A program made the position numbers and the translations under genes. The notes beneath the pieces were generated by a model, which made no database searches, was not told the DNA's origin, and saw nothing but the letters and a program-made list of their open reading frames with translations. Below, piece by piece: positions 2,707 to 19,892 of a DNA stretch of 34,078 bases. The number at the start of each line of letters is the position of its first letter. Position 1 is the first letter of the stretch. Source of the DNA: an uncultured Lachnospiraceae bacterium (GTDB lineage: Bacteria > Bacillota > Clostridia > Lachnospirales > Lachnospiraceae); the NCBI GenBank assembly GCA_947165275.1, contig CAMUZQ010000023.1:1-34078 (forward strand). The letters are read 5' to 3'.

Positions 2707-4477
2707 AATACTGAAGAGTCCTGTAGTCGGAAATATCCCCGTTCTCCTTTATCTCCCTGTCGTCAAGCCTTCTTCCTTCCTGATCCATAGTCCTTATTGC
2801 AGACAGGATGGGATACCTGGAATAAAGCCCTTTTAAGAATACCCTGTAGCTGTCAAGGCCTGCGCCTGCAGTCTCAAGCACCCTGTTCCCGAGGAAATTT
2901 GCACTCATGTCGCACCCATTGCCGCCCTCGATATCAAAATTGGCCCAGATCACATAGGGGACGATATAGCGTTTTTCCACATCCTCTTCCGAAAGGTTCC
3001 TTGAATCCTTCCCCAAAAGCTTCCATATGGGACGCACTACAGAATCAGAGGGCTGATGGTCTCCGTACATAACTATAACGACGGGATCGTCTGTATCCCG
3101 GAAATGATCCGTAAGATATTCAAATGCCTCATCGGATCTTTTTACAAGCGTGAGATAACGCTCCGTGGCCCTTACATTTTTTAATCCCTCACGGCCTTTG
3201 ATCTCAATATCAACAGGAAGATTCTCATAATCCTTTTCATAAGGGCTGTGATTCTGCATAGTCACACAGAATGCGAAAAATGGCTTCCCTCCTTTTTTGA
3301 GATTCTCCTCATATTCCCTGATTATCTGCTCTGAACAGGCCATATCGCTGATATAATCGCGCACCTTAGATGAATCCTTCGCAAAATCATCCCGGAAGAG
3401 TATCTTCTCAAAGCCGAGCTGGGGATATACCCTGTTCCTCTCCCAGCCTGCGGGAAGATAGGGATGCATGCCCACTGTGGCATATCCCTGATCCCTTAAA
3501 TATGCAGGCATCGCATAGATTCCCTCATCCACATACTGCTGATAGGGTATGGAACCCTCGGGAAGAAAGAGCAGTGAATCCCCCGTGAGGAATTCAAATT
3601 CCGAATTCGGTGTATTGCCACCCACTATGGATACATTAAGCTCTCCGGTCACGGCATTCTCATATTCTCCCCTCTGCAGGGAATGCACATAGGGCATATA
3701 GTCCTCATTTGTTTCAAAATCCCCCAGCACGGAAGGATCCGAGAAGGCCTCGTTCATTATGACTATTATGCTGGCTTTTTTTTCGCCGCAGGCTATGGGA
3801 GAAAAGCTGTCAAGCTTTTCCTTCGCAGCCTCTGCGGAATATCCCTCCGGCCTGTCAACATTGACATACTGAAGCTCCATGAGAAATGCAGTCAGAGTAC
3901 CGTCACGTTCGGATATAGCCGTAGGGGTGAAAAGCTTTGTATAGAACCCGAATATATCCCGGGCGGCTTCAGTCTGTACAAAGGCTGTATAGAGCATCAT
4001 TGCTCCTGCTGATAAAAGGACTCCGAGGGCTCTGATGCCAAAGGATACTCCCTTTTCACACAGATCCCTGAGCTTAAGATCCGCAAAACCGCAGATGATA
4101 AACAGGAGTATAAAACCGATGATACATAATAAAGCCCTGCCTCCGGGCATATAATCATATCCTCCTGCAACCTCAGCAGCCGTCCCGAGTGATCCCAGAT
4201 CCCAGGGAAGCAGGGTGACTCCGCGGAATTCCACAAGATAATATTCCATAAGCCCTGCGATCATAAAGAATACACACATTATCCTGAGGGATATCTTCAG
4301 GCTTCCGCTCAGGAAGAAAAAGAAGGTGTTTATAAGAATAAAAAGAAGGATATTCAATACCTGTATCCCCGCCTTCATCCTTACGAAAGGATTGTGTGTG
4401 TATGCTTCAAAAAGATACATCACAAGGGCGGGGACGATAATGTACAGCAGAAGATTTCTGATCCTGCCGGGATTCAT
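2687..4477 (-). CDS. LtaS-like phosphoglycerol transferase (sulfatase fold)
   Basis: This 596-aa protein has about five membrane segments in residues 8-165 followed by an extracellular alkaline-phosphatase/sulfatase-type domain from about 233. Visible catalytic elements are the metal ligand Glu243 (IVIMNEAF), the nucleophile Thr289 in GGNTPNSEFEFLTG, His410 in MQNHSPY, and Asp473-His474 in MYGDHQPSD. This is the layout of lipoteichoic acid synthase and related enzymes, which move glycerol-phosphate from phosphatidylglycerol onto a polymer or glycan outside the membrane. Its ATG overlaps the purA stop codon as ATGA, and its 3' end overlaps the YfhO gene. The family also includes phosphoglycerol transferases that modify other surface glycans, so true LTA polymerase activity is not certain. 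Confidence 0.85.
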   Translation of the reverse strand: MNPGRIRNLLLYIIVPALVMYLFEAYTHNPFVRMKAGIQVLNILLFILINTFFFFLSGSLKISLRIMCVFFMIAGLMEYYLVEFRGVTLLPWDLGSLGTAAEVAGGYDYMPGGRALLCIIGFILLFIICGFADLKLRDLCEKGVSFGIRALGVLLSAGAMMLYTAFVQTEAARDIFGFYTKLFTPTAISERDGTLTAFLMELQYVNVDRPEGYSAEAAKEKLDSFSPIACGEKKASIIVIMNEAFSDPSVLGDFETNEDYMPYVHSLQRGEYENAVTGELNVSIVGGNTPNSEFEFLTGDSLLFLPEGSIPYQQYVDEGIYAMPAYLRDQGYATVGMHPYLPAGWERNRVYPQLGFEKILFRDDFAKDSSKVRDYISDMACSEQIIREYEENLKKGGKPFFAFCVTMQNHSPYEKDYENLPVDIEIKGREGLKNVRATERYLTLVKRSDEAFEYLTDHFRDTDDPVVIVMYGDHQPSDSVVRPIWKLLGKDSRNLSEEDVEKRYIVPYVIWANFDIEGGNGCDMSANFLGNRVLETAGAGLDSYRVFLKGLYSRYPILSAIRTMDQEGRRLDDREIKENGDISDYRTLQYYELFDR

Positions 4478-5748
4478 CTGTAGATGATATCTTCCCTTGC
4501 AGGTCCGTTTGATATCATTGTCACGGGATATCCGATCTGCTTTTCAATGAAAAGGATATAATCCCTGCATTTCTCAGGAAGGTCTTCAAATTTTCTTATG
4601 CCTCTAATATCGCACTTCCAGCCGGGAAGTGTGGTGAGCACCGGCCTGGCCTTTTCAAGTGCACGGGGATTCGGGAATTCATGCACCCTCTTTCCGTCGA
4701 TCTCATAATCAGTACATACAGGGATCTCGTCAAGATATCCCAGAGCATCTATAACGGTAAAGGCGACATCCGTGGTTCCCTGAACCCTGCAGCCGTAACG
4801 GCTTGCGACACAGTCATACCATCCCACCCTTCTGGGTCTTCCGGTAGTGGCACCGTATTCGCCTCCGTCTCCTCCGTGCTGTCTCAGCTCCTCGGCCTCG
4901 TCACCGAATATCTCCGATGTAAAGGCTCCTGCTCCCACTGCAGATGAATAAGCCTTTGAAACAGTTACTATCTTTGTTATCTCATGAGGAGCGATCCCCA
5001 GACTCACCGCGCCGTAGGAAGCTATGGGCGATGAAGAGGTTACCATGGGATATATCCCGTTATCAGGATCCTTCATAGAGCCCAGCTGACCCTCAAGGAG
5101 GATAGTCTTTCCCTTTTTCAGCTCCTCAGTGCAATAAAGACTGACATCCGTAAGATAGGGCTTGATTATGTCCCTGTATTCCATGCAGGTTTCAAAAAGC
5201 TCCTTCGGATCAAGGGGATCCTTATGATACAGTCCGGTGAGCATCACATTCTTCAAAGTGCATATGTCCTCAAGCTTTTCCTTCAGATAATCCTCATCAA
5301 AAAGCTCACAGGCCTGTATACCCTTTTTCGCATATTTATCCGAATAAAAAGGCGCTATACCGCTTTTTGTAGAGCCGAAGGCCTTCCCTGAAAGCCTCTC
5401 CTCCTCACATACATCGAAAAGGATGTGATAAGGCATGAGGAGCTGTACTCTTTCCGAAATAAGTATGGCCGGTCTTGGGACACCCTTTGAAACTATCTCA
5501 TCCACCTCGGACTTGAGCTTCATAACGTCAAGCGCCACGCCCGATCCTATGACATTTGTGACATTTTCATTAAAAACCCCTGAAGGACAGGTATGAAGGG
5601 CAAATTTGCCGTACTTGTTCTTGATCGTATGTCCCGCATTGGCTCCGCCCTGAAAACGGGCTACAACATCAGCATCCTCAGCAAGAACATCCGTGATCTT
5701 GCCCTTGCCCTCATCTCCCCAGTTAGCTCCGACTATAGCCTTGACCAT
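4474..5748 (-). CDS. purA: Adenylosuccinate synthetase
   Basis: PurA makes adenylosuccinate from IMP, aspartate and GTP, the first committed step from IMP to AMP in the cytoplasm. The 424-aa length is normal for the family. The signature loop GDEGKGK sits at residues 11-17 with the catalytic Asp12, and His40 in GGANAGHTI is the second catalytic residue. The GTP/IMP-binding segments around EGQLGSMKD and TTGRPRRVGW are present. The ATG directly follows the purB TAA, and the ribosome-binding site GGAGGTG lies within the last purB codons. PurB and PurA catalyse consecutive steps of AMP synthesis, so the pairing is functional. No frameshift or missing key residue was seen. Confidence 0.97.
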   Translation of the reverse strand: MVKAIVGANWGDEGKGKITDVLAEDADVVARFQGGANAGHTIKNKYGKFALHTCPSGVFNENVTNVIGSGVALDVMKLKSEVDEIVSKGVPRPAILISERVQLLMPYHILFDVCEEERLSGKAFGSTKSGIAPFYSDKYAKKGIQACELFDEDYLKEKLEDICTLKNVMLTGLYHKDPLDPKELFETCMEYRDIIKPYLTDVSLYCTEELKKGKTILLEGQLGSMKDPDNGIYPMVTSSSPIASYGAVSLGIAPHEITKIVTVSKAYSSAVGAGAFTSEIFGDEAEELRQHGGDGGEYGATTGRPRRVGWYDCVASRYGCRVQGTTDVAFTVIDALGYLDEIPVCTDYEIDGKRVHEFPNPRALEKARPVLTTLPGWKCDIRGIRKFEDLPEKCRDYILFIEKQIGYPVTMISNGPAREDIIYR

Positions 5749-7185
5749 TTATACATTCACCTCCGCTTTCTCTCCAAGCAAATCCTCATACTTCCTGAGC
5801 ACAGGCTCTACATATTCTTTAAGGAACCTCTCCACCTGATGTGACGCGCAGCCGGTATAATTAACAGGATCAAGACCGGCTTTAAGCTCCTCAAGGGAAA
5901 CTCCGAACATATCCTCATCTGCTATAAGCTCCAGCAGATCATTGTCAAGCCCCTCGCTCTTGACATGCCGTCCGGCCTCCATCGAAAGCTCTCTTATCTT
6001 CTCATGGAGCTCCTGACGGTTGCCGCCCTTATTGACGCAGTCCATCATGATATTCTCCGTAGCCATGAACGGAAGCTCTGCCATAAGATGCTTGCGGATG
6101 ACCTTATCATATACGACCAGCCCGTCAACCACATTCAGATCCAGAGTCAGTATTCCGTCAATTGCAAGAAACGCCTCGGGGACAGAAAGCCTCTTATTGG
6201 CAGAATCATCAAGAGTCCTCTCAAACCACTGCACGGAGGAGGTGATCCAGGTATTCATCGTATCACTCATCACATATCTGGAAAGGGACGCTATCCTTTC
6301 GGATCTCATGGGATTCCTCTTGTATGCCATTGCAGAGGAGCCTATCTGTGATTTCTCAAAGGGCTCCTCAACCTCTTTTAAATGCTGGAGGAGTCTTATA
6401 TCATTTGACATCTTATGTGAGGATGCCGCTATGCCGGCAAGTACATTAAGTACTCTGGCATCCACCTTCCTGGAATAGGTCTGTCCGGAGACGGGATAGC
6501 AGGAAGCAAATCCCATCTTCTCAGCTATCATCGGATCGAGCCTGTCAACCTTGTCCATATCCCCGTCAAAAAGCTCAAGGAAGGAGGCCTGTGTTCCCGT
6601 AGTTCCCTTTGATCCCAGAAGCTTCAGGGAATCCATGACATATTCGAGATCATCAAGATCCATCAGAAAATCCTGAAGCCAGAGCGAAGCCCTCTTGCCC
6701 ACTGTGGTAGGCTGCGCCGGCTGGAAATGTGTGAACCCGAGAGTGGGCAGATCCTTGTATCTGCCGGCAAACTCCGAAAGCTCCGATATGACATTCACAA
6801 GCTTCCTTTTCACAAGCTCCAGGGCATCACGCATTATTATAATGTCCGTATTATCTCCGACATAACAGGAGGTTGCGCCTAAATGTATGATGCCCGCAGC
6901 CTTCGGACATTGCTTCCCGAAGGCATAGACATGGCTCATCACATCATGCCGCACTTCCTTTTCACGCTCTCTTGCCACTTCATAATTGATATCAAAGACA
7001 TGTGCCTTCATCTCATCTATCTGCTCGTCCGTGATATTAAGCCCGAGCTCCTTCTCGACCTCGGCAAGCGCTATCCAAAGCTTCCTCCAGGTGGAGAATT
7101 TCTTGTCCTCAGAGAAGATATACTGCATCTCCTTACCTGCATACCTCTCAGAAAGAGGACTGATATATCTGTCAGTATCGCCCAT
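5749..7185 (-). CDS. purB: Adenylosuccinate lyase
   Basis: This 478-aa enzyme belongs to the fumarase/aspartase superfamily. It splits SAICAR into AICAR plus fumarate and adenylosuccinate into AMP plus fumarate. The family signature is at residues 283-294 (SSAMAYKRNPMR), and the other conserved blocks are at about 100-113 (IHLGATSCYVGDN) and 149-161 (LGFTHFQPAQPTT). The start is the ATG at 7185, preceded by AAGGAAG. A strong promoter lies about 50 nt upstream, so purB leads its own transcription unit purB-purA-ltaS-like-yfhO-like. Length and motifs match the longer, clostridial/eukaryotic-like PurB subgroup. Confidence 0.97.
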   Translation of the reverse strand: MGDTDRYISPLSERYAGKEMQYIFSEDKKFSTWRKLWIALAEVEKELGLNITDEQIDEMKAHVFDINYEVAREREKEVRHDVMSHVYAFGKQCPKAAGIIHLGATSCYVGDNTDIIIMRDALELVKRKLVNVISELSEFAGRYKDLPTLGFTHFQPAQPTTVGKRASLWLQDFLMDLDDLEYVMDSLKLLGSKGTTGTQASFLELFDGDMDKVDRLDPMIAEKMGFASCYPVSGQTYSRKVDARVLNVLAGIAASSHKMSNDIRLLQHLKEVEEPFEKSQIGSSAMAYKRNPMRSERIASLSRYVMSDTMNTWITSSVQWFERTLDDSANKRLSVPEAFLAIDGILTLDLNVVDGLVVYDKVIRKHLMAELPFMATENIMMDCVNKGGNRQELHEKIRELSMEAGRHVKSEGLDNDLLELIADEDMFGVSLEELKAGLDPVNYTGCASHQVERFLKEYVEPVLRKYEDLLGEKAEVNV

Positions 7186-7240
7186 ATGCTCTTCCTTTCC
7201 CGGCTGTTGTCATTTTACCGGAACAACAAAACAACGAGTT

Positions 7241-7282
7241 ATTATATACTACGCCATACCTGATTTCAAATACCGCCGGTAT
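7241..7282 (-). promoter_or_regulatory. Sigma-A promoter of the purB operon with adjacent inverted repeat
   Basis: The minus strand carries TTGAAA (7264-7269), a 17-nt spacer and TATAAT (7241-7246), a near-consensus sigma-A promoter giving a leader of about 50 nt before purB. Immediately upstream of the -35 is a perfect inverted repeat, ATACCG-C-CGGTAT (7270-7282), well placed for an operator; its one-base centre makes it a poor hairpin terminator for the gene before it. No recognisable riboswitch fits in the short leader. Confidence 0.8.
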
Positions 7283-7286
7283 CCTG

Positions 7287-8510
7287 CTATTCGTAGGAGG
7301 CTACGATGTCCAGTATCTCATTTGCATAATTCGGATATTTGGCGACAAGCTCCTGTACCTCCTTCTTCGCCGCATCCCTGTTATCGGAATTATAGGAGAT
7401 CCTTTTTCTCAGCCCCTGCCTTCTGGCTACCAGCTCATGTCTAAGCTCCACCATCTCTCTTCTGTCCGCTATCGCATCCGCCTGATGAAGCCAGAGCATC
7501 GGGAAATTGACATTGGCATTGACAAGCTCTTTCCTGAATCTTTCCTCTGCTGCGTCAAGCTCCGAGCTCGTGCGTCTCATGAGCAGACGCTCGTCTCTCT
7601 CCTCCTGATACAGCCTCCAGTTGTATGCAAGCTCATCGGAGGAATTGATATGATATTTCTCATACTCATAGGTTACAAGATTCTGTATGTTCACGAACCT
7701 GATCTTGACCGTATTCTGCTTTGCTATGATCTGATTGATCTGGTTGGTCGTGCGGCGGTTCACGCTTCTGGCATTGAGGAAGGCCGAGAAGGACAGCGCC
7801 AGTGTTATGGACCCCAGGGCAGCTGCGATTATAAATCCCGGAAGGACATTCATCTTGAACATGAACTGCATCAGCAGGAGTATCAGCATGACAAAGCCCA
7901 TGGCGAATACTGTGATCACCGCAGTATTCCTGCAGCTTATCTCCTTTACTATGGCTTCTCTTCTGGTAAACTGTCTGGAGACCTTCTCACCCTCAAGCTT
8001 CCTCAGATCATCCCTTACGAGCTCCTTATAATCCTCATGCTCCTTGAGCTCATCAAGAGCCTTGGGCATATCCTTTGATATCGCTTCCATCTGATAATAG
8101 AGAGCATCGCTGATCTTACCGACCCTCTTTGAATAAGACTGTGTCCTTTTTGTCAGATTTACAACATTCTCCGCAGCCAGGATCAGCCTGTTGCCTGACT
8201 CCTCGGGTATCTGCTCTATAAGCTCGCAGTCCTTCAGATAATCCGTCACATACCTGTATTCCTTTGAAGCGGAATCGATCTCTGTCGTGCATTCCGCCAT
8301 CTGATCACAAAGATTCCTTATATATCTCTGCCTTAAGTGCCTGGAGGACATATCCACCTCGGCCCGGTCCATCTGCTCTACCTCCGGGAGGTCCTCCTTC
8401 ATATACCCGTCATCAAAATAATCATGATCCTCGTCATAATCCTCATCATAATCGTATGGATCACGTCCTTTACGGGAAAACAGATCTTTTATCCTGGAAA
8501 AAAGCCCCAT
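7287..8510 (-). CDS. Membrane-anchored coiled-coil protein of the DUF5717/DUF5716 module
   Basis: This 407-aa protein has no function I can name. It starts with a short basic segment, then a striking Asp/Tyr-rich stretch (residues 17-36), a long charged helical region (about 48-190), two membrane segments (about 196-216 and 222-245) and a second helical, probably coiled-coil, region to the C-terminus. With both long arms on the same side of a two-helix hairpin, they probably face the cytoplasm. Its ATG abuts the stop codon of the preceding gene. It is the last gene of the four-gene module and the only one with membrane segments, so it may tether the soluble partners to the membrane; that role is inference. 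Confidence 0.75.
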   Translation of the reverse strand: MGLFSRIKDLFSRKGRDPYDYDEDYDEDHDYFDDGYMKEDLPEVEQMDRAEVDMSSRHLRQRYIRNLCDQMAECTTEIDSASKEYRYVTDYLKDCELIEQIPEESGNRLILAAENVVNLTKRTQSYSKRVGKISDALYYQMEAISKDMPKALDELKEHEDYKELVRDDLRKLEGEKVSRQFTRREAIVKEISCRNTAVITVFAMGFVMLILLLMQFMFKMNVLPGFIIAAALGSITLALSFSAFLNARSVNRRTTNQINQIIAKQNTVKIRFVNIQNLVTYEYEKYHINSSDELAYNWRLYQEERDERLLMRRTSSELDAAEERFRKELVNANVNFPMLWLHQADAIADRREMVELRHELVARRQGLRKRISYNSDNRDAAKKEVQELVAKYPNYANEILDIVASYE

Positions 8511-9275
8511 CTAGATCATCCTTCTGTAATCGGCCTTAAGCCTGTTGCTCAGTCTCTCCGCCCCAAGCCTGCCTGCATAAGATTTTTCTCTCAGTCTTTT
8601 TTTAAGCTCCGCCATCTCCACGGGCTCCCTTGTCATCTCCTCGATCTCCTTTGAAAGACCCTCATCCGGATGCTGCTTTACGAGCATATCTATATAATCC
8701 ACCCTGGACATGGCAAGCTTCCTGCAGAAAAAGGTCTTTCTTTCATCCCCTGCTGCGCTGAAGCACTCAGCGGCCTTACCGAAGAGGAAATACAGTGCGT
8801 AGAGCTTCCCGAGCTTACCCAAAAGCTCCCTGTATTTCAGCCCTTCACGCTCTGCACCCGCGTCCATAAGCTCCCTGGCATGCTCATACAGAAGGATCGC
8901 CGAACGGTATTTGCTGTTTTCCACAAGGAAGTCCCCCCTGGCGATGAGCCGGATGAACTCATTTGTATCCGTACCGTCCTTCAGCATCTTCACGATACCT
9001 GAAACGGTCTCTCCGCTCATATAATGTCTGTATGAAAAGAGTGTCCTGACATATCCCGTGATATCCTTTTCCATCCTCAGGTCATCCGAAAGATCCGGAA
9101 GAGCCAGTTTTTCCTTAATGAAAGCAATAAGCTCCTCCTTCATCAGAAAATCCCCCAGATCGTACAGGCGCTCCTTTATCACAAAGCACAGCTCCTCAAA
9201 TGAGTGTACAGCTGCCGAAAGCTCAGGTATATGATATGGATTTTGGGAATAAACACCTATAGGCTCGTATATCAT
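8511..9275 (-). CDS. Small all-helical, TPR-like protein of the module
   Basis: This 254-aa protein is not assigned to a named family. It appears all-helical and soluble. Residues of about 105-175 (containing ENSKYRSAILLYEHA and LFGKAAECFSAAGD) resemble two tetratricopeptide-type hairpins, and the C-terminal 60 residues are Lys/Arg/Glu-rich. The start ATG shares one base with the stop of the upstream Hsp70-like gene (TAATG) and has GAGGTG as ribosome-binding site, so the two are probably made in a fixed ratio. TPR proteins are common adaptors for Hsp70-type ATPases, which suits its place next to one, but no catalytic feature is seen. Confidence 0.72.
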   Translation of the reverse strand: MIYEPIGVYSQNPYHIPELSAAVHSFEELCFVIKERLYDLGDFLMKEELIAFIKEKLALPDLSDDLRMEKDITGYVRTLFSYRHYMSGETVSGIVKMLKDGTDTNEFIRLIARGDFLVENSKYRSAILLYEHARELMDAGAEREGLKYRELLGKLGKLYALYFLFGKAAECFSAAGDERKTFFCRKLAMSRVDYIDMLVKQHPDEGLSKEIEEMTREPVEMAELKKRLREKSYAGRLGAERLSNRLKADYRRMI

Positions 9276-10501
9276 TATATAAACACCTCGGTCTCAACCT
9301 TAACCCCTGATGACCTGAAAATATCTCCGAAGCCCAGGTCGTATGCGGTGCAATGCACGCTCGAAGCATCCTTCATGCTTATCTCAAGTCTTACACGGGT
9401 GCAGCCCTCCGGCCTTTTGGGGAAGCCTTCGCATCTTAACACACTGTATCTGACATCCTTCGTAAAAAAAGATTCGATCCTGAGACGTATCTCCTTGTCT
9501 GAACCCAGATAGAATTCACAGGCTCCCTTTGCCTCATACCAGTTTATCCCGGCATTAAGCAGCGGCACATAGACCTCCTGACCGTCCCTTATCATATGAA
9601 GTCCCACATCCGATACAAGCTTGTCATCATCAAAAAAAACGCAGGTTTTCAGCGTGGGATTTCCGTCCCTGTCATCGATCCCGGCATAGCAGGCCCCCTT
9701 TGTATAGAGGTTTCTGCCCTGAAACACCCTTCGTTTGCGTTCGCAGAGATAGGAGACGGACTTTGAGAGCCACCCTCCTTCAAATCCCTCCCCGGAAAGG
9801 TAAACCGCCGACACTATCTCGGAATCCAGCACGGATCTTGCTATATCCAGAAAGCAGAGATCATCCTTTAGCGTCATATCGAAATCCCTGCCCTCGACCA
9901 TACAAAGATGAGGTCTCGTATCCACCCTGGTATAGAGCAGAAGACTCCTCACTACCTCCCCGTCATAATCAAAAAGCGCGACCTTGTTTTTTGTAAGTAC
10001 CGGATCCTGATTCATGGCATAATAAAAGAAGCACTCCGGATATCCTATTATCCTGTAGGTCCTGCCCTCCTCCGAAAGAAACGAGGCTGCCTCCTCGACC
10101 GTCTTCACATATGCTTCCGATACGTCAGCCAGGGCTATGACCACCCTTTCCACAGTATCAAGAGGTGACAGGACAGAGGAAAGATATATTGTCCGTTTCA
10201 TAAACCCGGACAGGATATCCTTATAAAGATATCTTTTCCCGTTCCTTTCTGTCTCCCGTCCTTCCATGGCGCCCACAAGGAGATTTCTTATAAGCTCTCC
10301 GCCTTCCCCCGAAAGCCTGATCGCATCCTCTCCGTAGGCTATTTCATCATCCGGACCGATATAAGCCGCGACAGGGATGACATACCTCTCGGTACCGGCC
10401 AGTACCGGAACAGAACGCACCTCCTCATTTCCATCATTATCGATCCCTATGCTAACCTGACAGAAAAGATCGGTAAGATCATAGCCTATCACCCTTCCCA
10501 T
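9275..10501 (-). CDS. Hsp70/actin-fold protein (resembles DUF5716)
   Basis: This 408-aa soluble protein carries degenerate Hsp70-type landmarks in order. These are a first phosphate-loop-like start (residues 5-18, IGYDLTDLFCQVSI), an Hsp70-like segment IPVAAYIG...AYGEDA (42-60), a phosphate-2-like strand KVALFDYDGEVVRSLLL (173-189), an adenosine-motif-like VYLSGEG (233-239), and YTKGACYAG (266-274), comparable to the GAA...A helix of Hsp70. The C-terminal 120 residues look beta-rich, as in an Hsp70 substrate-binding domain. The usual glycine-rich phosphate loops are altered, so ATP binding is unproven. It overlaps the preceding large gene by 13 nt and has a GGGAGG ribosome-binding site. DUF5716 is my best recollection of the family name. 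Confidence 0.75.
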   Translation of the reverse strand: MGRVIGYDLTDLFCQVSIGIDNDGNEEVRSVPVLAGTERYVIPVAAYIGPDDEIAYGEDAIRLSGEGGELIRNLLVGAMEGRETERNGKRYLYKDILSGFMKRTIYLSSVLSPLDTVERVVIALADVSEAYVKTVEEAASFLSEEGRTYRIIGYPECFFYYAMNQDPVLTKNKVALFDYDGEVVRSLLLYTRVDTRPHLCMVEGRDFDMTLKDDLCFLDIARSVLDSEIVSAVYLSGEGFEGGWLSKSVSYLCERKRRVFQGRNLYTKGACYAGIDDRDGNPTLKTCVFFDDDKLVSDVGLHMIRDGQEVYVPLLNAGINWYEAKGACEFYLGSDKEIRLRIESFFTKDVRYSVLRCEGFPKRPEGCTRVRLEISMKDASSVHCTAYDLGFGDIFRSSGVKVETEVFI

Positions 10502-13500
10502 ATGACCTCCCTCACTATCCTGTCCCTTATGATATAATCCTCGGCAAGCTCAGCAAAGCTTTCCGTATCCTCCATGACAAGACTTGTCAGGGCATCCTGA
10601 AGGATCTCATACCTGGTCTCCCCATTGGTCAGTCTTTCCTCCGACCTTTCGATATTGCTTCCGGCATGTCCCTTTCCCTCTACGGTAATATAATACTGCA
10701 GAGTCTCTCCCGGAAAGATCACCCCTCTTGTCTGATATACTCCGGGATATAATTCCTTCATGATCTCATTCCTGTAATTGACGCTTCCTTCGTTATCGCT
10801 CTCCAGGCAGTAATTCAGCACAACCCTGGATCCGGGATCCGTCCTGTGCTCGATAAAGACATCCTCCGAAAAAAGCTCCAGGACAGGGATAAGATCCTTG
10901 TAGGAAAGGAAGAAATCAAAGATGATATCCCTCTCCGTCAGATCTCGTATATAAGGATACAGTATCCTGTCGGACCGCATATCCCTCCTGCTCTCAAAGA
11001 ACCTTATGAGACAAAGCGCTTCGATATCCGAAAGCGTCTCGTCTATGGCATATTCCAGAAGGCCTATATACAGCCTGTCATTAAGCAGTATGTCCCTTAA
11101 GAAATCATCCTCGGCAGCCCTCCTGAAATACTCGCCGACAACCCGTATGGAAGCATCCCCCTTAAGATAATCAAAGAATATCTCATCTCTTTCTCCAAGG
11201 TATGCTCCGGTGGCAAGCATCTGCTCGATGATCCTTCCTTCGATCACGGAAGCCTCCGCATCGAAATCAATGCAGGCTCTCCATATATCCTTAAGCTCCC
11301 TTAATGTACCCTCATAATATTTCGAAACAAAGCCCAGAATCTCCTCATTGTATTTATTCCCCCTGAAGGAGGCTGAGGCCGCCTCCAGGAGCACCGGATC
11401 AGGCTCCCTTCCCTCCTCTATGAATCTGGTGGCTATCCTCATGAGTATCCTGGGATCCATGCCGTATGAGCCGTACTCCTTTATCACATTGTAGGCCTCA
11501 TCGTCATCGCCCTTGATGGAGCAGAATCGGATATATTCATTTCTCTCCTCCATGGTAAGAAGACCCGTATTTATGGAAGACAAAAGCTCATCCAGCAGCT
11601 CCTGCATATCATTGTCAAAATAATACCTTAAAAGTGAGGTAAGAAGGCCCTCCTTGAATCTCCTGTTGAAAAGCTCGGAATCAATGATATGCCTGACATA
11701 GGACACATTCCTGTCGTCGATGGATATATAGCTCCTTCCGTTTTCCGCCAGAGCCACCCAGAGTCCGGGATCATCTATATCCATTGATCCCATGCTGTCC
11801 AGATATCCTGAAAGCCTCAGAAGCCTTATATCTTCAAAATCCGTATATTTCGAGCCGTATCTTCTTCCGTCCTCATCCTGGAAAAAAAGCTCATGATCAT
11901 TGTCATATATACTGACATAGGCTCTGCCCCCCTTTACGGGAATTGTCCTCTCCTCCTTAAAGGCATCCTCCACCACGGTAACCGATCTTATGCCGGGATC
12001 ACTTACGATGATAAGATGCAGAAATCCGTTTTTTAGTATCTCCCTGTCCAGAAGATTCAGATCAAAAACCCCTTTGTCAGCATCTCTGAAAAATCTCAGA
12101 TAATCGACGATTATGGCAAGATTCTCATCCATATGCCCCTGCATCACCTCAGAAGCGGCAAATATGGTGCATGCATTCATGCTTTGGATGAGATACATCC
12201 CTGCCTCATTTTCATTGACTATCATATTTGCGTATACATAGGATCTGAATGCGGGAGGCAGATCATTCTGGAAGCTGTAATACATGAGGACATTTCTGGG
12301 AAGCAGTTTAGTACCGCTCCGCCCCATGGAGTAGAGGTAGAAATCATACAGATTGGTAACTCCCAGATCTCTTTCCACGGCCTTTTCAAAATAAGGAAAA
12401 TATCTGCTGTCGCTTATCTCATTGCGGATCAGATAGGAGCATATGGAAATGAGCATCTCATTGTCATTGAATTCGCTGAAGTATGCCCCCATGATGCTTA
12501 TCACTCTCGCATCAAAGCCCCGGATCCTCTGTGACAGTATCGCCACCTGGTCTGCGATCTCTTTTTTCAGCAGGCCTCGTTTTACGGCAAAGCATAATAC
12601 ATTGATCTCAAAATCCGAAAGCTTCCTTATAAGAGACGGATCATTGGAGAGAATACTGTAAGCCTCCAGATACATGACCGGACTCCTCATCCCCCGCATT
12701 ACCTGATCCTCGATAAGGGCTCTTTCCCTTTCGGGAGACATCTTAATGGTCTCATCGAGATATATGAGGATCCAGAGTATCCTCCAGGAGTCCCCCGAGC
12801 GGTGATAAAGATCCCAGACCTGTCTCACAGCCCGGCTGAGCTTCTCATCATCCTGATCACACATAGCCCTCAGATATGTATAATATGCTGTGAGCTCATA
12901 TGAAAAATCCCTTTGATCCATTTCACGCTCTACAGCGTCCAGCACTATATCCGCTTCATTGTATCTTTTTGCCGCAAGCAGCAGCTGTGCCTGCATCAGC
13001 CTGCTCTCGGGATCATTCCTGTCTGACACAAGAAGCCTCTCTATAAGCCTGTTGGAACGGCTTATCCATTCATCCCCCGATATATCGCCTATACGGAAAT
13101 TTATGAATTCATTCACAAGCCTTGCTATGGCTGCATGCCTGGACCTTACCGTCTCTCTCTCTCTGCCCTTTGATACGGACATATCCACAAAGATCGGAAG
13201 AAAGATCTCCGAATGAAGTGATCTGAGCCTCAGGGATGCGAAATTATGTCCGGCATGGAGTCTGTCATACCGGATCACAAAGCTTATTTCGGCAAAATTC
13301 CCCTCGAAATCCTCCAATCCGTACTCATTCTTATAAAGCTCTACAAAATCATCCGTGCTGCTTACCTTAAAGCCCGAATACCCCCAGCCGCTCCTTCTCA
13401 CGGTAACGGAGATCTCCCTGTCAGCGGTAAGAGCCTGCTCCATCACACTTCCTTCGGCAAAATTCAGCAGTACAGGATTCTTTTTGCCTGCCTCGACGAG

Positions 13501-14013
13501 AAATTCCTCGACGCCCTCATACTTCCGTCCGGTCAGCGCGCATGCCGCGAAAGCCCTGTATTTGAGAAAGGTCTCCATCTCTCCGCCTTCAAATATCCCC
13601 TTTGCCTCGTCACTGTAAAAAAGCTCCGCAGCCTCGGCAAAATTCTCCTTTGCAAGATTGGTGAAATGAAAAAGATTCCTGACCTGGCCTATGGATGAGG
13701 CTATCTTCTTATTCACGATACTCAGTGTAACAGGTATCCTCTCCTCGCCCTGATTGGATATTATGGAAATACTGCCCTTAAACACGGTTCCCGGATCGAA
13801 GCCCTTTGAATCAAGCTCATAGCCTATCACCAGACCGTTGTCCGGGATCCTTCCGTTATGATCCGTGACGGAAAGCCGGATGCATCTGTGTGAGCATCTC
13901 ATCATAAAGGCAATATTATCATTGTCTGCCGCGCTCAAAATAAAGGTGCCCTGAGCCGACGTGTTCACCTCGCAGGTTTCCTCTATTCTTTTTATATTCA
14001 GAGACAGGCTCAA
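10489..14013 (-). CDS. 1174-aa solenoid-like protein (resembles DUF5717)
   Basis: This very large soluble protein has no signal peptide or membrane segment. Residues 1-105 look like a beta-sandwich. Residues of about 105-1050 are almost all helical, with TPR-like pairs (for example near 325-365, ESRLMQAQLLLAAKRYNEA), interrupted by a beta-rich stretch near 655-720. The last 120 residues turn beta/alpha again. I recall such proteins as DUF5717, of unknown function. The start is a TTG overlapping the upstream stop (TTGA); GGAG eight bases before it supports this choice. Size, solenoid character and tight overlap with an Hsp70-like gene suggest a scaffold or a client-handling partner. No enzymatic motif was recognised. 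Confidence 0.75.
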   Translation of the reverse strand: MSLSLNIKRIEETCEVNTSAQGTFILSAADNDNIAFMMRCSHRCIRLSVTDHNGRIPDNGLVIGYELDSKGFDPGTVFKGSISIISNQGEERIPVTLSIVNKKIASSIGQVRNLFHFTNLAKENFAEAAELFYSDEAKGIFEGGEMETFLKYRAFAACALTGRKYEGVEEFLVEAGKKNPVLLNFAEGSVMEQALTADREISVTVRRSGWGYSGFKVSSTDDFVELYKNEYGLEDFEGNFAEISFVIRYDRLHAGHNFASLRLRSLHSEIFLPIFVDMSVSKGRERETVRSRHAAIARLVNEFINFRIGDISGDEWISRSNRLIERLLVSDRNDPESRLMQAQLLLAAKRYNEADIVLDAVEREMDQRDFSYELTAYYTYLRAMCDQDDEKLSRAVRQVWDLYHRSGDSWRILWILIYLDETIKMSPERERALIEDQVMRGMRSPVMYLEAYSILSNDPSLIRKLSDFEINVLCFAVKRGLLKKEIADQVAILSQRIRGFDARVISIMGAYFSEFNDNEMLISICSYLIRNEISDSRYFPYFEKAVERDLGVTNLYDFYLYSMGRSGTKLLPRNVLMYYSFQNDLPPAFRSYVYANMIVNENEAGMYLIQSMNACTIFAASEVMQGHMDENLAIIVDYLRFFRDADKGVFDLNLLDREILKNGFLHLIIVSDPGIRSVTVVEDAFKEERTIPVKGGRAYVSIYDNDHELFFQDEDGRRYGSKYTDFEDIRLLRLSGYLDSMGSMDIDDPGLWVALAENGRSYISIDDRNVSYVRHIIDSELFNRRFKEGLLTSLLRYYFDNDMQELLDELLSSINTGLLTMEERNEYIRFCSIKGDDDEAYNVIKEYGSYGMDPRILMRIATRFIEEGREPDPVLLEAASASFRGNKYNEEILGFVSKYYEGTLRELKDIWRACIDFDAEASVIEGRIIEQMLATGAYLGERDEIFFDYLKGDASIRVVGEYFRRAAEDDFLRDILLNDRLYIGLLEYAIDETLSDIEALCLIRFFESRRDMRSDRILYPYIRDLTERDIIFDFFLSYKDLIPVLELFSEDVFIEHRTDPGSRVVLNYCLESDNEGSVNYRNEIMKELYPGVYQTRGVIFPGETLQYYITVEGKGHAGSNIERSEERLTNGETRYEILQDALTSLVMEDTESFAELAEDYIIRDRIVREVIWEG

Positions 14014-15098
14014 CTATATGTCTCCTTTATAAGGCTCAGCAGTCTGTCGTCATCCTTTCTGTCCATAAAACAGAATCTGATATAGGTATCATCAAGCCCT
14101 TTGAAATCCGAGCAGTCCCTTATCATCATCCTCTGCCTGACAGCGAGCTCAAAAAGGGCTCGGGATGACGGCCCCTTTTCCGGCAGATGCACCAGCACGA
14201 AATTTGCCCTGGGCTTTATATAGCTTATGCCTGAGGAGCTGAGATCATCAAGCATTTTACATACCCTTTCTCTCTCCCCGGACATATATGTCTTTACCTT
14301 TTTTATGTATTCCCTGTCCGAAAGCATCAAAATGGCAGCTTCGTTTGAAAGTGAGCTTACAGACCAGGGATCCTTATTCTCCTCTATTTCCGAGAGAAGC
14401 TTTTCATTGGAGGTGATCCCGTATCCCAGTCTTAAACCCGGAGCGCAGAAAAACTTTGACATGCTCCTTATCACAAAAAGGCTTCTGTACTGAGCTGTAA
14501 GAGGGGATACATCATAAATATCATCCGCAAAATCGATATAGGTCTCATCAACGGCACAGACAGTGTCAAGCCGGTCGCATATCTCAAGCAGCCTTCCCAT
14601 CCTGTCGGCGGATACGGCTGTGGACGTGGGATTGACCGGATTGCATATCATAAGGATATCATAGCCTTCCGCCACCCTGTCGCACAGAGCTTCCATATCA
14701 AATTCAAAGTCATTCCCTTCTTTAAGATAAAAAAGATCCGCGCTGCCCCCCGCGATGAGGACATTTCTTTCATATTCGGCATAAGCAGGCGCGACTATGA
14801 GCGCCCTGGGCGCCTTTTTATGCTTTATCACCGCACCTATGAGCTCGGAAGAGCCGCCACCCACGATGATATGTCCGGCCTCAGCCCTGCAGTATCCGCC
14901 AAGGGCTTTCCTTAAGGCCCTGTACCCTCTGTCGGGATATCTTTCCACACAGTGCAGTCTTTCACCGATCCCCTCCAGGTACTTTCCGGACACGCCCAGA
15001 GGACTTACATTTGCCGAGAAGGAAATGATCTCCTTTGCAGGGATGCCGTATATCTCCTCTATCTTTTCAAGATCCGAGCCGTGAAACGCTTCCTTCAT
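14010..15098 (-). CDS. PLP-dependent class I/II aminotransferase (CobD/HisC-like)
   Basis: This 362-aa fold-type I PLP enzyme starts with HGSD and SANVSPLG, a pattern close to threonine-phosphate decarboxylase (CobD) and histidinol-phosphate aminotransferase (HisC). Key residues are visible: Asn153-Pro154 and Asn156 in CNPVNPTS, Asp184 and Tyr187 in VDETYIDF, the Schiff-base Lys215 in SMSKFF, and Arg223 in GLRLGYG. No cobalamin or histidine genes are nearby, so neither pathway is supported by context. It overlaps trkH (ATGA) and the next gene (TTGA), so it is co-translated with potassium uptake and the DUF5717-like module. The substrate is unknown; it may serve the module. Confidence 0.85.
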   Translation of the reverse strand: MKEAFHGSDLEKIEEIYGIPAKEIISFSANVSPLGVSGKYLEGIGERLHCVERYPDRGYRALRKALGGYCRAEAGHIIVGGGSSELIGAVIKHKKAPRALIVAPAYAEYERNVLIAGGSADLFYLKEGNDFEFDMEALCDRVAEGYDILMICNPVNPTSTAVSADRMGRLLEICDRLDTVCAVDETYIDFADDIYDVSPLTAQYRSLFVIRSMSKFFCAPGLRLGYGITSNEKLLSEIEENKDPWSVSSLSNEAAILMLSDREYIKKVKTYMSGERERVCKMLDDLSSSGISYIKPRANFVLVHLPEKGPSSRALFELAVRQRMMIRDCSDFKGLDDTYIRFCFMDRKDDDRLLSLIKETYS

Positions 15099-16537
15099 TT
15101 TCTTCTCCAGGTTCCGGGTGAAAACAGCAGCAGCATGGGATACAGCTCCAGTCTTCCAGCCAGCATATCAAATGTCAGTACAAGCTTTGAAACAGTGGAA
15201 TAACTGTTAAAATTCCCGGTAGGTCCAACCACCGAAAGTCCGGGTCCGATATTATTCAATGTAGCCATAACAGCTGTAAAGTTCGTCTCGAGGTCAAAGC
15301 CGTCAAGAGAGATCACAAGAAGAGATATCAGGAGGACCAGCACATAGGACACCAGATAAACCGCGACACCGCTGACCATCTCATCCTTTATCTTTCTTTT
15401 GTCCATATATATATTCTTTACAAGCCTGGGATGGATGAAATGCATAAGCTCTCTTATATATGCCTTTGCCATTATTATAAGCCTTGATATCTTAAAGCCG
15501 CCGCCGGTGGAGCCTGCACAGGCGCCCACAAACATCAGACAGACAAGTATGGTCTTTGAGAGTGCGGGCCATTCATTGAAATCCGCAGTTGAATACCCGG
15601 TTGTGGTGATTATGGAGCTGACCTGGAAAAGCGCCTTTCCGAAGGCGTCAGAGGTGCTGGCGAACATGCCTTTGGCATTGTGCATGATGATCAGTGTGGA
15701 GGCGATAACAACGGCAAAATAAGCCCTCACTTCTTCCATGCTGAAGGCCTCCTTGATACTGTGCCTTATCAGGATAAAGAAATAAAAGTTAAAGTTAACT
15801 CCGAAAAGGAGCATGAAAACCGAGATTATCATCTGCTGTAGATAGGTATAATCCGCAATCGAGGAATTCTTTATTCCGAAGCCTCCCGTTCCTGCGGTAC
15901 CGAAGGTCAGGGTTATGGAATCAAACAAAGGCATCCCCGTGATCAGCAGTATCACCATCTGTATCACTGTCATGCCGAAGTAGATGATATAAAGGATCTT
16001 AGCGGAATCCCCCAGCTTCGGGACGAGCTTCCCCACATCAGGTCCGGGGGATTCGGATCTTAAGAGATGCATATTCTGTGCTCCGGTTTTGGGAAGTATG
16101 GCAAGGATGAATACAAATACCCCCATCCCACCTATCCAGTGGGAGAAGCTTCTCCAGAAAAGCGAGCAGTGAGACAGGCTCTCCACGTCGGAAAGGATGC
16201 TGGAGCCTGTCGTGGTAAAACCGGAAACAGTTTCAAACAGGGCATCGATGAAATCCGGGATCTCCCCTGTTATCACAAAGGGTATGCAGCCCACAACAGA
16301 CATTATTATCCAGCCCATTGCAACCGAGATGAAACCCTCCTTCGCATAATACAAAGGCTTGCTTACCTTCTTCAGGGTAATGAGTCTGCCTGTCAGGGCA
16401 CATATCAGGGCAATGCCAAAATATACAAATCCCTCCGATTCCCTGTAAAACAGGGATACGACAGCCGGAGCCAGAAAAAGAGCTCCCTCAACCTCCATCA
16501 GCGTTCCCAGTATGTATAATATGCTGGCAAAATTCAC
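15095..16537 (-). CDS. trkH: TrkH-family potassium uptake channel subunit
   Basis: This 480-aa membrane protein is the ion-conducting subunit of a Trk/Ktr potassium transporter. The four pore loops with selectivity-filter glycines are visible at about 107-111 (FTTTG), 212-220 (GTAGTGGF), 310-314 (ITTTG) and 428-433 (NNIGPG). The characteristic MxGACAGSTGGG-like segment is at 336-347. The start is GTG at 16537, supported by GGAGG nine bases upstream. The gene sits 37 nt after trkA, its regulatory partner. Its 3' end overlaps the aminotransferase gene. The length is typical of TrkH of the Trk rather than the shorter KtrB type. Confidence 0.93.
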   Translation of the reverse strand: MNFASILYILGTLMEVEGALFLAPAVVSLFYRESEGFVYFGIALICALTGRLITLKKVSKPLYYAKEGFISVAMGWIIMSVVGCIPFVITGEIPDFIDALFETVSGFTTTGSSILSDVESLSHCSLFWRSFSHWIGGMGVFVFILAILPKTGAQNMHLLRSESPGPDVGKLVPKLGDSAKILYIIYFGMTVIQMVILLITGMPLFDSITLTFGTAGTGGFGIKNSSIADYTYLQQMIISVFMLLFGVNFNFYFFILIRHSIKEAFSMEEVRAYFAVVIASTLIIMHNAKGMFASTSDAFGKALFQVSSIITTTGYSTADFNEWPALSKTILVCLMFVGACAGSTGGGFKISRLIIMAKAYIRELMHFIHPRLVKNIYMDKRKIKDEMVSGVAVYLVSYVLVLLISLLVISLDGFDLETNFTAVMATLNNIGPGLSVVGPTGNFNSYSTVSKLVLTFDMLAGRLELYPMLLLFSPGTWRRK

Positions 16538-16574
16538 TTGAAATTACCTCCGCTTTATATCATAACCCTCAGGC

Positions 16575-17942
16575 TCAGCCTGCGAGTATATCTGTTATGT
16601 CACTGAGTCCCTTATGGGTAGTGACGATCACCACTCTGTCTCCTACCTTTATGGAATGTCCGCCTCTGGGATAGATGATATTATTTCTGCGTCTGATGCA
16701 GGCGACAATAAGATCTTCCTTGATCTTAAGATCCTGGAGAGGGATATCCGTCACCTCAGATTCCTCTCTTATGACAAACTCCAGAGCCTCAGCCTTACCG
16801 TCAAGGATATTTACAAGTGTCTCAACCTGGCTTCTTCCCTGAGAATTCTGCATGGCCCTTATCGTCGTATTCACGATATCTACAACTATCGATCTGATAT
16901 GGACTATGGTCCCGATGTTTATCTCATCGATTATCGCATCGAACATCATCCTGTTGACCTTGGTCACTATTTTTGCTTTTTCATTATGCTTTTTTGCATA
17001 GAGTGAGATCAGTATGTTTTCCTCGTCTATACTTGTAAGGGCAACAATGGACTCCGCCCTCTCGATGCCCTCCTCCAGTATGACGGTCTCCTCGGTTCCG
17101 TCACCGTTTATTATGGTCGCCTTCTCGAGAGCCTCGTCAAGCTCCATGCACCTTGCCCTGTCCCTCTCGATTATCTTGACATTGATACGCGAATCCAGAA
17201 GCATTTTAGCAAGATAGAATCCAAGCTTGCTGCCTCCGATTATCATTGTATCCTTTACCGCATGAGTCTCGATATGGATCGTCTCGAAAAATCTGGCCGC
17301 ATTCAGCGGGGATGCAAGAAATGAAACCCTGTCACCCTCCTTCAGGACCGTGGAGCCGTTGGCAATAAGAACCTGATCTCCCCTCTCCACCGCGCATATC
17401 TGTATGGAATTGCGGATTTCAGGGGAAAGCTTCATTATCTTCTCGTCAATCAGCGGCGAATTCTTTTCTATCCGGAATTTAAGAAGCTCTACCCTTCCGC
17501 CGGAAAGCGTATCTATTTTTATGGCAGAAGGAAATCTCAGGATCCTTGCGATCTCTCTGGCAGAGGCCCTCTCCGGATTGATAACCAGAGTAAGTCCCAG
17601 CTCCTCTCTGAAGAAGCCGACCTCATCCAGATATATCGGATTCCTTACCCGGACTATCGTCTTTATGTCCGCATTTGATTTTCTGGCTATCAGACAGCAG
17701 AGGAGATTCACCTCATCAGAGTACGTGGAGGCTATCAGGATATCAGCCTTCTTTATCCCGGCCTCCTGCTGTACCACAATAGAGGCTCCGTTTCCCTCCA
17801 CTCCTATGACATCAGCAGTCTCCGTGATCTGATTTACAACCTCTCCGTCAATATCAATGACAATAATGTCATGATCTTCCTTTGAAAGTGATTCTGCCAG
17901 TGCAGAACCGACCTTTCCGCATCCTACTATAATTATCCTCAT
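16575..17942 (-). CDS. trkA: Trk system peripheral regulator TrkA
   Basis: This 455-aa cytoplasmic protein has two tandem RCK modules. RCK-N1 begins with the NAD-binding GCGKVG (residues 7-12) and RCK-C1 follows at about 140-220. RCK-N2 starts near 230 (IIGGSKLGFYLA) and RCK-C2 spans about 370-455. Nucleotide binding (NAD/ATP) by TrkA gates the TrkH channel. The double-module length matches TrkA rather than single-module KtrA. Its ATG overlaps the stop of the preceding ABC exporter gene (ATGA), and trkH follows. The second nucleotide-binding loop reads GGSKLG, a normal variation in TrkA. Confidence 0.95.
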   Translation of the reverse strand: MRIIIVGCGKVGSALAESLSKEDHDIIVIDIDGEVVNQITETADVIGVEGNGASIVVQQEAGIKKADILIASTYSDEVNLLCCLIARKSNADIKTIVRVRNPIYLDEVGFFREELGLTLVINPERASAREIARILRFPSAIKIDTLSGGRVELLKFRIEKNSPLIDEKIMKLSPEIRNSIQICAVERGDQVLIANGSTVLKEGDRVSFLASPLNAARFFETIHIETHAVKDTMIIGGSKLGFYLAKMLLDSRINVKIIERDRARCMELDEALEKATIINGDGTEETVILEEGIERAESIVALTSIDEENILISLYAKKHNEKAKIVTKVNRMMFDAIIDEINIGTIVHIRSIVVDIVNTTIRAMQNSQGRSQVETLVNILDGKAEALEFVIREESEVTDIPLQDLKIKEDLIVACIRRRNNIIYPRGGHSIKVGDRVVIVTTHKGLSDITDILAG

Positions 17943-19870: not shown

Positions 19871-19892
19871 TTATATATATTCCCTCAAGCCT

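Follow-up and report, generated by a model that had tools for sequence, protein, structure and literature searches.

The yeast Hsp70 protein Ssz1 is described in an excerpt of Zhang et al. 2020 (PMC7083937) as a lid-less protein that binds ATP without hydrolysing it, and whose substrate-binding domain (SBD) contacts nascent chains before Ssb does. In Firmicutes, loci combining HSP70, GrpE and either tetratricopeptide repeat (TPR) or FNIII partners are reported, in an excerpt of Kaur et al. 2020 (PMC7159879), as GAP1-N2 systems. The Pfam families DUF5716 (PF18980) and DUF5717 (PF18984 and PF18983) are given no function in that database; their relation to Hsp70, the longer operon in which they also occur and the reduction of that operon are added here. 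The object of this study is a module of four genes on the minus strand at positions 7287-14013 of a 34,078-nucleotide stretch of DNA from an uncultured Lachnospiraceae bacterium (assembly GCA_947165275.1, contig CAMUZQ010000023.1, positions 1 to 34,078; this whole stretch is called the window). Sequence comparison favours reading the module as a reduced operon, in which a pseudo-Hsp70 was kept and the motor Hsp70s were lost.

From upstream to downstream the module encodes a DUF5717 giant of 1174 amino acids (aa) with a TTG start (10489-14013), a DUF5716 protein of 408 aa (9275-10501), a TPR-derived protein of 254 aa assigned by profile-profile match and gene order (8511-9275), and an accessory membrane coiled-coil protein of 407 aa (7287-8510). 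An earlier reading of the letters alone (the sequence-only reading) had described this run, and its open reading frame (ORF) coordinates were all reproduced, successive genes overlapping by 13 nucleotides (nt), overlapping by 1 nt and abutting at 0 nt. Curated Pfam scores were reached by the giant for DUF5717_N (PF18984, E 6.6e-219) and the DUF5717 C-terminal model (PF18983, E 6.4e-61), and by the 408-aa protein for DUF5716_C (PF18980, E 1.6e-81). Pfam yielded nothing above cut-off for the proteins of 254 and 407 aa, nor did NCBIfam for any of the four, where two of them had only sub-threshold matches to unrelated models. Pairwise NG86 dN/dS (nonsynonymous to synonymous rate) values against five related loci were 0.04-0.20, rough figures with 19 of 20 comparisons computable and dS near saturation throughout, and these low ratios indicate that all four genes are under purifying selection. 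In the open-licence literature, the only match to the DUF5716/DUF5717 names and Pfam accessions concerned curcuma and mismatch repair, and no description of the module was found under Hsp70/GrpE/VWA (von Willebrand factor A) in Lachnospiraceae, pseudo-ATPase Hsp70 with TPR, or lid-less bacterial Hsp70 paralogues; the main text of PMC11019930 contains no occurrence of Lachnospir- or Clostridia.

The 408-aa protein had been guessed to be an Hsp70 with the landmarks of that family in order and altered phosphate loops. Its AlphaFold2 model and searches of the PDB returned no unrelated fold and upheld the guess, with a predicted actin-like nucleotide-binding domain (NBD, residues ~1-285) followed by an SBD-beta (~286-408), and the ordered landmarks with altered loops were seen in the alignment of short forms, that is, of the window protein and its homologues. 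Because direct sequence searches came up empty (no phmmer match of the 408-aa protein in the PDB and none to Pfam HSP70, PF00012), and the direct profile match of DUF5716 to DnaK was weak, the Hsp70 link needed structure and the HspB intermediates of the longer operon described below. HspB members match PF00012, and profile-profile comparison joined the short DUF5716 to HspB with an E of 1.9e-35 and to HspC, another Hsp70 of that operon, with an E of 5.5e-11. By descent, as traced through these profiles, and by predicted fold, the protein belongs to the Hsp70 superfamily.

Homologous loci were fetched via DUF5716, as the best 80 of 563 confirmed relatives, so that the presence of DUF5716 in them is by construction and that of its neighbours is not; they are phylogenetically redundant, ten being close to the window (58-84% identity). 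Residues were surveyed in one MAFFT alignment of 81 short forms (the window and the 80 loci), 18 DnaK sequences and the Hsp70 paralogues of the longer operon, with residues named by Escherichia coli DnaK numbering. K70, E171 and T11, the catalytic lysine, the catalytic glutamate and the threonine of phosphate loop 1, were each found in 0/81 short forms, as was D201. The canonical helical lid was likewise missing from the 81 aligned forms, a median of 10 residues (10-23) following the SBD-beta as against 138 in DnaK. The window protein thus resembles, in its sequence, a pseudo-ATPase without a lid; of the earlier reading, the Hsp70 ancestry stands, and a working chaperone is not supported.

In other families of the order the relatives of these genes stand in a longer operon, with the order DUF5717 N-part (~390 aa), DUF5717 C-part (~900), HspA (~559), GrpF (mostly ~630), HspB (~520), HspC (~546), HspV (~692), a TPR protein (~390) and sometimes a membrane protein, the gene for which was at the end in four genomes viewed (G039, G042, G065 and G159). 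HspB is the DUF5716 orthologue, GrpF carries GrpE at its C-terminus, and in HspV a VWA domain comes after the Hsp70 part, in the position of the lid. From 31 other-family genomes fetched for carrying DUF5717 or DUF5716, 30 were viewed, a 3.5-kb contig (G060) being left out. The HspA-GrpF-HspB order was present in 24/30, in some with small extra ORFs between; among the other six, four contigs stop before HspB, G142 shows only HspB and HspC, and G051 is reduced. In L177, L178, L179 and L037 the DUF5717 N- and C-parts form a single ORF (1191-1329 aa); since L177-L179 retain the longer operon despite this fusion (L037 is cut after HspA), the fusion is not tied to reduction. In a few genomes (L053, L052, L037) a valyl-tRNA synthetase gene, a sigma-factor/SpoVAD sporulation cluster or both are found close to the longer operon.

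All the surveyed residues (K70, E171, T11, D201, T199, D8 and the first glycine of the adenosine motif) were retained in HspA (27/27), HspC (21/21) and HspV (19/19). HspB, by sequence already a pseudo-ATPase in the longer operon, lacks K70, T199 and D201 in 25/25, and the simplest reading of the alignment is that the inactivation of DUF5716 is older than the window's lineage. The lid is absent from HspA, HspB and HspC (median 6, 10 and 18 residues after the SBD-beta); HspV has ~204 residues (201-207 in 19/19) in its place, with VWA recognised by Pfam in one copy (L035:12517-14676) and a DTTGSM motif of the metal ion-dependent adhesion site (MIDAS) type in the four copies read (L035:12517-14676, L168:12466-14538, L182:12000-14090 and L056:5146-7218). 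In two GrpF genes (L042:4127-6019, L035:7375-9312) the GrpE domain is fused behind ~480 residues with no family above the Pfam cut-off. A second, operon-borne GrpE besides the housekeeping one was present in 8/8 longer-operon genomes searched.

The two smaller proteins of the window were connected to the same operon by profiles. Over 175 columns, the family profile of the 254-aa protein aligned with the operon's TPR proteins at E 5e-23, and the first member of that partner alignment matches TPR_2 at 2.2e-21; from these sequence matches the 254-aa protein is a shorter relative of the ~390-aa TPR protein. No Pfam TPR model matched the 254-aa protein itself at E up to 1, so that its earlier description as TPR-like stands through homology to a bona fide TPR protein and not through a TPR motif detected by Pfam. 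The 407-aa protein matched its longer-operon homologue with a profile-profile E of 5.3e-41. Together with DUF5717 and DUF5716, these matches give all four window genes counterparts in one operon, and they and the genome surveys bear out the view of a group-specific, chaperone-derived module.

In an Hsp70 tree (FastTree, 416 columns, rooted on DnaK; f1 being the window's family) the short forms and HspB from families f4 and f22 formed one group (support 0.991), nested in HspB (0.844), and HspB plus short forms were sister to HspC (support 1.0). It is this placement of the short form inside the HspB orthologue group that leads to the module being read as a reduced operon. An unrooted DnaK tree gave the same neighbour order (f1, f4, f22, the rest), except that one f1 row, G138, stands apart on a long branch. 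In the window's own genome a single DnaK and a single GrpE are encoded, on a contig other than the window's; the remaining Hsp70-profile matches there are ORFs of 335 aa and 237 aa, too short for an operon Hsp70, and the operon's other Hsp70s and second GrpE were not found by profile search. The simplest reading of these comparisons is that HspA, GrpF, HspC and HspV were lost in the window's family. What looks like a second reduction was met in G051, a genome of another family with DUF5717 and DUF5716 side by side and the membrane gene on a separate contig beside a MurJ-like gene; that genome yielded no operon-type active Hsp70, and the two stretches of it that were read contained no TPR relative. 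As G051 keeps DUF5717 and DUF5716 adjacent, these two make up the minimal core.

The solenoid nature proposed for the 1174-aa protein is confirmed by its AlphaFold2 model (mean predicted local distance difference test, pLDDT, 87; predicted template modelling score, pTM, 0.60), in which TPR-like helical solenoid occupies residues ~283-663 and ~735-1048 and beta stretches lie at ~665-730 and ~1051-1121. The model adds two features absent from the earlier description, PapD/ASH-like beta-sandwiches near the N-terminus, one at ~1-102 matching HYDIN and FimC domains at ~2.1 A and one at ~181-279 matching YadV at 2.3 A. With a root-mean-square deviation of ~2 A over ~95 residues, this similarity was taken as one of fold and not of relationship; a relationship of the giant to Ski3, IFT-A, NatA or separase was also set aside, the match levels being common for solenoids. 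In the 407-aa protein one merged hydrophobic stretch, residues 193-229, lies near the middle. Where a two-helix membrane hairpin had been proposed, two hydrophobic segments were found in 45 of 63 homologues, one in 15, none in 2 and three in 1.

We favour, with a probability of about 0.45, the reading in which the reduced multi-Hsp70 operon acts as a scaffold-held, ATP-independent complex for holding and transferring clients. The pseudo-Hsp70 would be constitutively seated on the DUF5717 scaffold, whose predicted immunoglobulin (Ig)-plus-solenoid build is what would be expected of a multi-partner scaffold, and its SBD-beta would be offered as a low-affinity, ATP-independent client site, as in Ssz1 within the ribosome-associated complex (RAC). 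Such a complex would hold clients, near the membrane in most genomes, and either keep them for assembly or pass them to the housekeeping DnaK (or HtpG), so that the module would probably act upstream of DnaK. The physical complex, client binding, the hand-over and the membrane localisation are all put forward here as presumptions.

A rather unlikely, though the strongest, competitor to this reading is that the protein is a structural adaptor only, its Hsp70 fold being exapted as a fixed part of a scaffold for envelope, division or surface-structure assembly and its SBD-beta binding one dedicated partner, for example a strand of DUF5717, instead of a range of clients. Conservation among 82 short forms fits a fixed interface, since residues 258-273 (mean 0.90) and 386-399 (mean 0.72) exceed the phosphate loops (0.55 and 0.46; whole NBD 0.54); the two PapD/ASH-like domains of DUF5717 and the membrane protein that accompanies 63/78 copies agree with it as well. 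The longer operon, however, with three active-site-intact Hsp70 types and a GrpE, points to client handling, and the recurrent neighbours scanned include no conspicuous envelope gene.

We regard as improbable a nucleotide-sensing switch, in which the NBD would still bind a nucleotide, whether ATP or another, but not hydrolyse it, and the module would serve as a regulator. Some positions are retained in the short forms, namely D8 (76/81), D or E at position 194 (81/81) and G338 of the adenosine motif (81/81), and binding without hydrolysis is what the excerpt cited above reports for Ssz1 (PMC7083937). Against this, T11, K70, E171, D201 and G339 (0/81) are gone from every short form.

More improbable still is the absence of any joint machine, the genes being co-transcribed but functionally separate and held together by operon inertia, as the frequent synteny of neighbouring purine and transport genes might suggest (a PurB-like gene is linked in 47/80 loci). 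Hidden Markov models run on all ORFs identified the neighbours in the 80 loci; greedy longest-ORF calling covers the TPR or membrane gene with antisense ORFs at a few of them (78 DUF5716, 71 TPR and 58 membrane genes called). DUF5717 lies directly upstream of DUF5716 in 80/80 loci (median spacing 16 nt; <=60 nt in 73/80) and the TPR gene downstream of it in 78/78 uncut loci (median 12.5 nt; <=60 nt in 71/78). In L123 DUF5717 is divided between two ORFs, and a single locus has a gap of 363 nt between DUF5717 and DUF5716. This order and tight spacing persist while the flanking genes differ between genera, which marks the module as the conserved unit and argues against inertia. So does co-occurrence over 24 genomes of other families, with both DUF5717 and DUF5716 in 11, neither in 12 and DUF5717 only in 1 (G041, 80% complete, its contig cut inside the operon), and so does G051, where the two stay together with the membrane gene on another contig. 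Regular separation of the genes, which the sequence-only reading had named as the observation that would speak against it, was found only for the membrane protein and in G051; DUF5717, DUF5716 and the TPR gene stand together in the related loci.

DUF5716 was detected in 117/246 genomes of the order and in 33/33 listed genomes of the window's family, one copy each, 109 match-less genomes falling outside that listing. DUF5717 was found in 47/61 near relatives and 35/37 genomes within the genus. At the level of the class it was found in 11/291 genomes, of which 10 belong to the window's family, and one match lies below threshold. The membrane gene is next after the TPR gene in 63/78 loci and does not follow in 15/78, 8 of these 15 being titled Eisenbergiella; in 14/14 whole genomes searched among the 15 no membrane homologue was present, and 3/3 controls matched. 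Membrane linkage as a general trait, as it had been proposed, is therefore abandoned. An Hsp90/HtpG-like gene, its Hsp90 identity scanned with Pfam in one copy, precedes DUF5717 in the same orientation in 26/80 loci (within L107-L165), at <=350 nt in five of them (L126, L133, L141, L147 and L165); in the window's own genome HtpG is on another contig. A functional link to HtpG was tried as the basis of the mechanism and rejected, as the PurB-like gene is linked oftener (47 vs 26 of 80) and the own HtpG lies elsewhere.

Several of these results weigh against a client-holding complex descended by reduction. The module is dispensable in the order, DUF5716 being missing from 129/246 genomes, and DUF5717 is missing from 2/37 genomes of the own genus, G001 (66% complete) and G034 (90% complete). 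Tethering to the membrane cannot be essential, given the 14/14 genomes lacking the membrane gene, and the linkage to HtpG-like genes is weaker than that to PurB-like ones. In the tree, branches are long and the node uniting the short forms is weakly supported (0.325). The residue positions depend on a single MAFFT alignment, in which the T199 column is noisy for the short forms (T in 8/81), and the split adenosine motif (G338 kept, G339 lost) bears on any binding of ATP without hydrolysis.

The weakest alternative, an anti-phage or conflict system akin to the Hsp70/GrpE-containing GAP1-N2 GTPase systems, is given hardly any credence, for although the Firmicutes loci in the excerpt of Kaur et al. 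2020 also join HSP70, GrpE and TPR-fused partners (PMC7159879), and PADLOC matched 3/5 longer-operon proteins scanned to candidate defence models (HspC and HspV to PDC-M61B, E 3.9e-11 and 1.7e-6; the TPR protein to PDC-M71B, 2e-9), it matched none of the four window proteins, no GTPase/GAP1 Pfam match was found in 18 proteins of three longer-operon loci, nor one to TRAFAC GTPase or GAP1 in the four window proteins, DUF5716 is single-copy in each of the 33 listed family genomes, and a comparison with 72,556 plasmid records brought up no match to the giant. The 408-aa protein has matches in five 'phage' records, every one of them lacking annotation and derived from human faeces; those encoding DUF5716 homologues include the 'Bacteriophage sp.' records MT835719.1, MT835988.1 and MT835486.1, and they are probably host bacterial DNA misfiled as phage. 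In another genome of the genus (G032, contig C1, 1705000-1724900; L187) a separate island carries five Hsp70 genes, one of which includes a PIN domain, together with genes for an SNF2-type helicase and a protein of metallo-beta-lactamase fold; it appears to be an accessory or conflict island with no relation to the four-gene module.

Around the module, the names purA, purB, trkA, trkH, cobC and MreB, for genes of the window and its genome, are tentative assignments from sequence or length. A promoter-like site on the minus strand (TTGAAA-17-TATAAT, 11/12) lies at 7241-7269, between the membrane gene and the PurB-like gene, and suggests that the latter has its own transcription start. It is the top scorer of 27 promoter-like sites in 4300-20000; shuffled sequence averages 22.8, so that the site counts as a consensus match only. 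Upstream, a CobC/aminotransferase-like gene (14010-15098, minus strand) overlaps the giant by 4 nt in the window's genus, where the overlapping run extends to the TrkH-like and CobC-like genes (4-nt overlaps), and lies outside the conserved module. Among the 80 loci, a CobC-like gene occurs close to the module in 25, of which 12 have it in the same orientation, and a TrkH-like gene in 12; the conserved unit is therefore the four genes.

When compared with the described systems, the module differs from GAP1-N2 loci in the several Hsp70 paralogues of its longer operon, one followed by VWA, and in DUF5717. It shares with DnaK and Hsp70 proteins (PF00012) the NBD and SBD-beta of the predicted fold and, through HspB and HspC, profile similarity; it differs in the missing lid and in the replacement of K70, E171, T11 and D201. 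If the favoured reading is right, Hsp70 evolution has here run a natural experiment, in which an operon of several Hsp70s, complete with its own GrpE and a VWA-bearing Hsp70, was trimmed to its non-hydrolysing member in a large gut family, and gene families that no annotation explains, including a DUF5716 carried by all 33 listed family genomes, would acquire a function. The nearest likeness is to Ssz1, as the short DUF5716 is also lid-less and its catalytic residues are lost in sequence; the partner of Ssz1 is a J-domain protein on the ribosome, whereas the presumed partner here is DUF5717. On this analogy one may tentatively, and with less confidence than in the complex itself, propose a bacterial Ssz1-like principle, in which an ATPase-dead, lid-less Hsp70 on an Ig-plus-solenoid scaffold would form an ATP-independent holding or assembly platform, the family having kept only this core and dropped the three active-site-intact Hsp70s and the exchange factor of its sister families. 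Pseudo-Hsp70s would then be a working principle in bacteria as in the eukaryotic RAC, the comparison being an analogy of working and not of membership.

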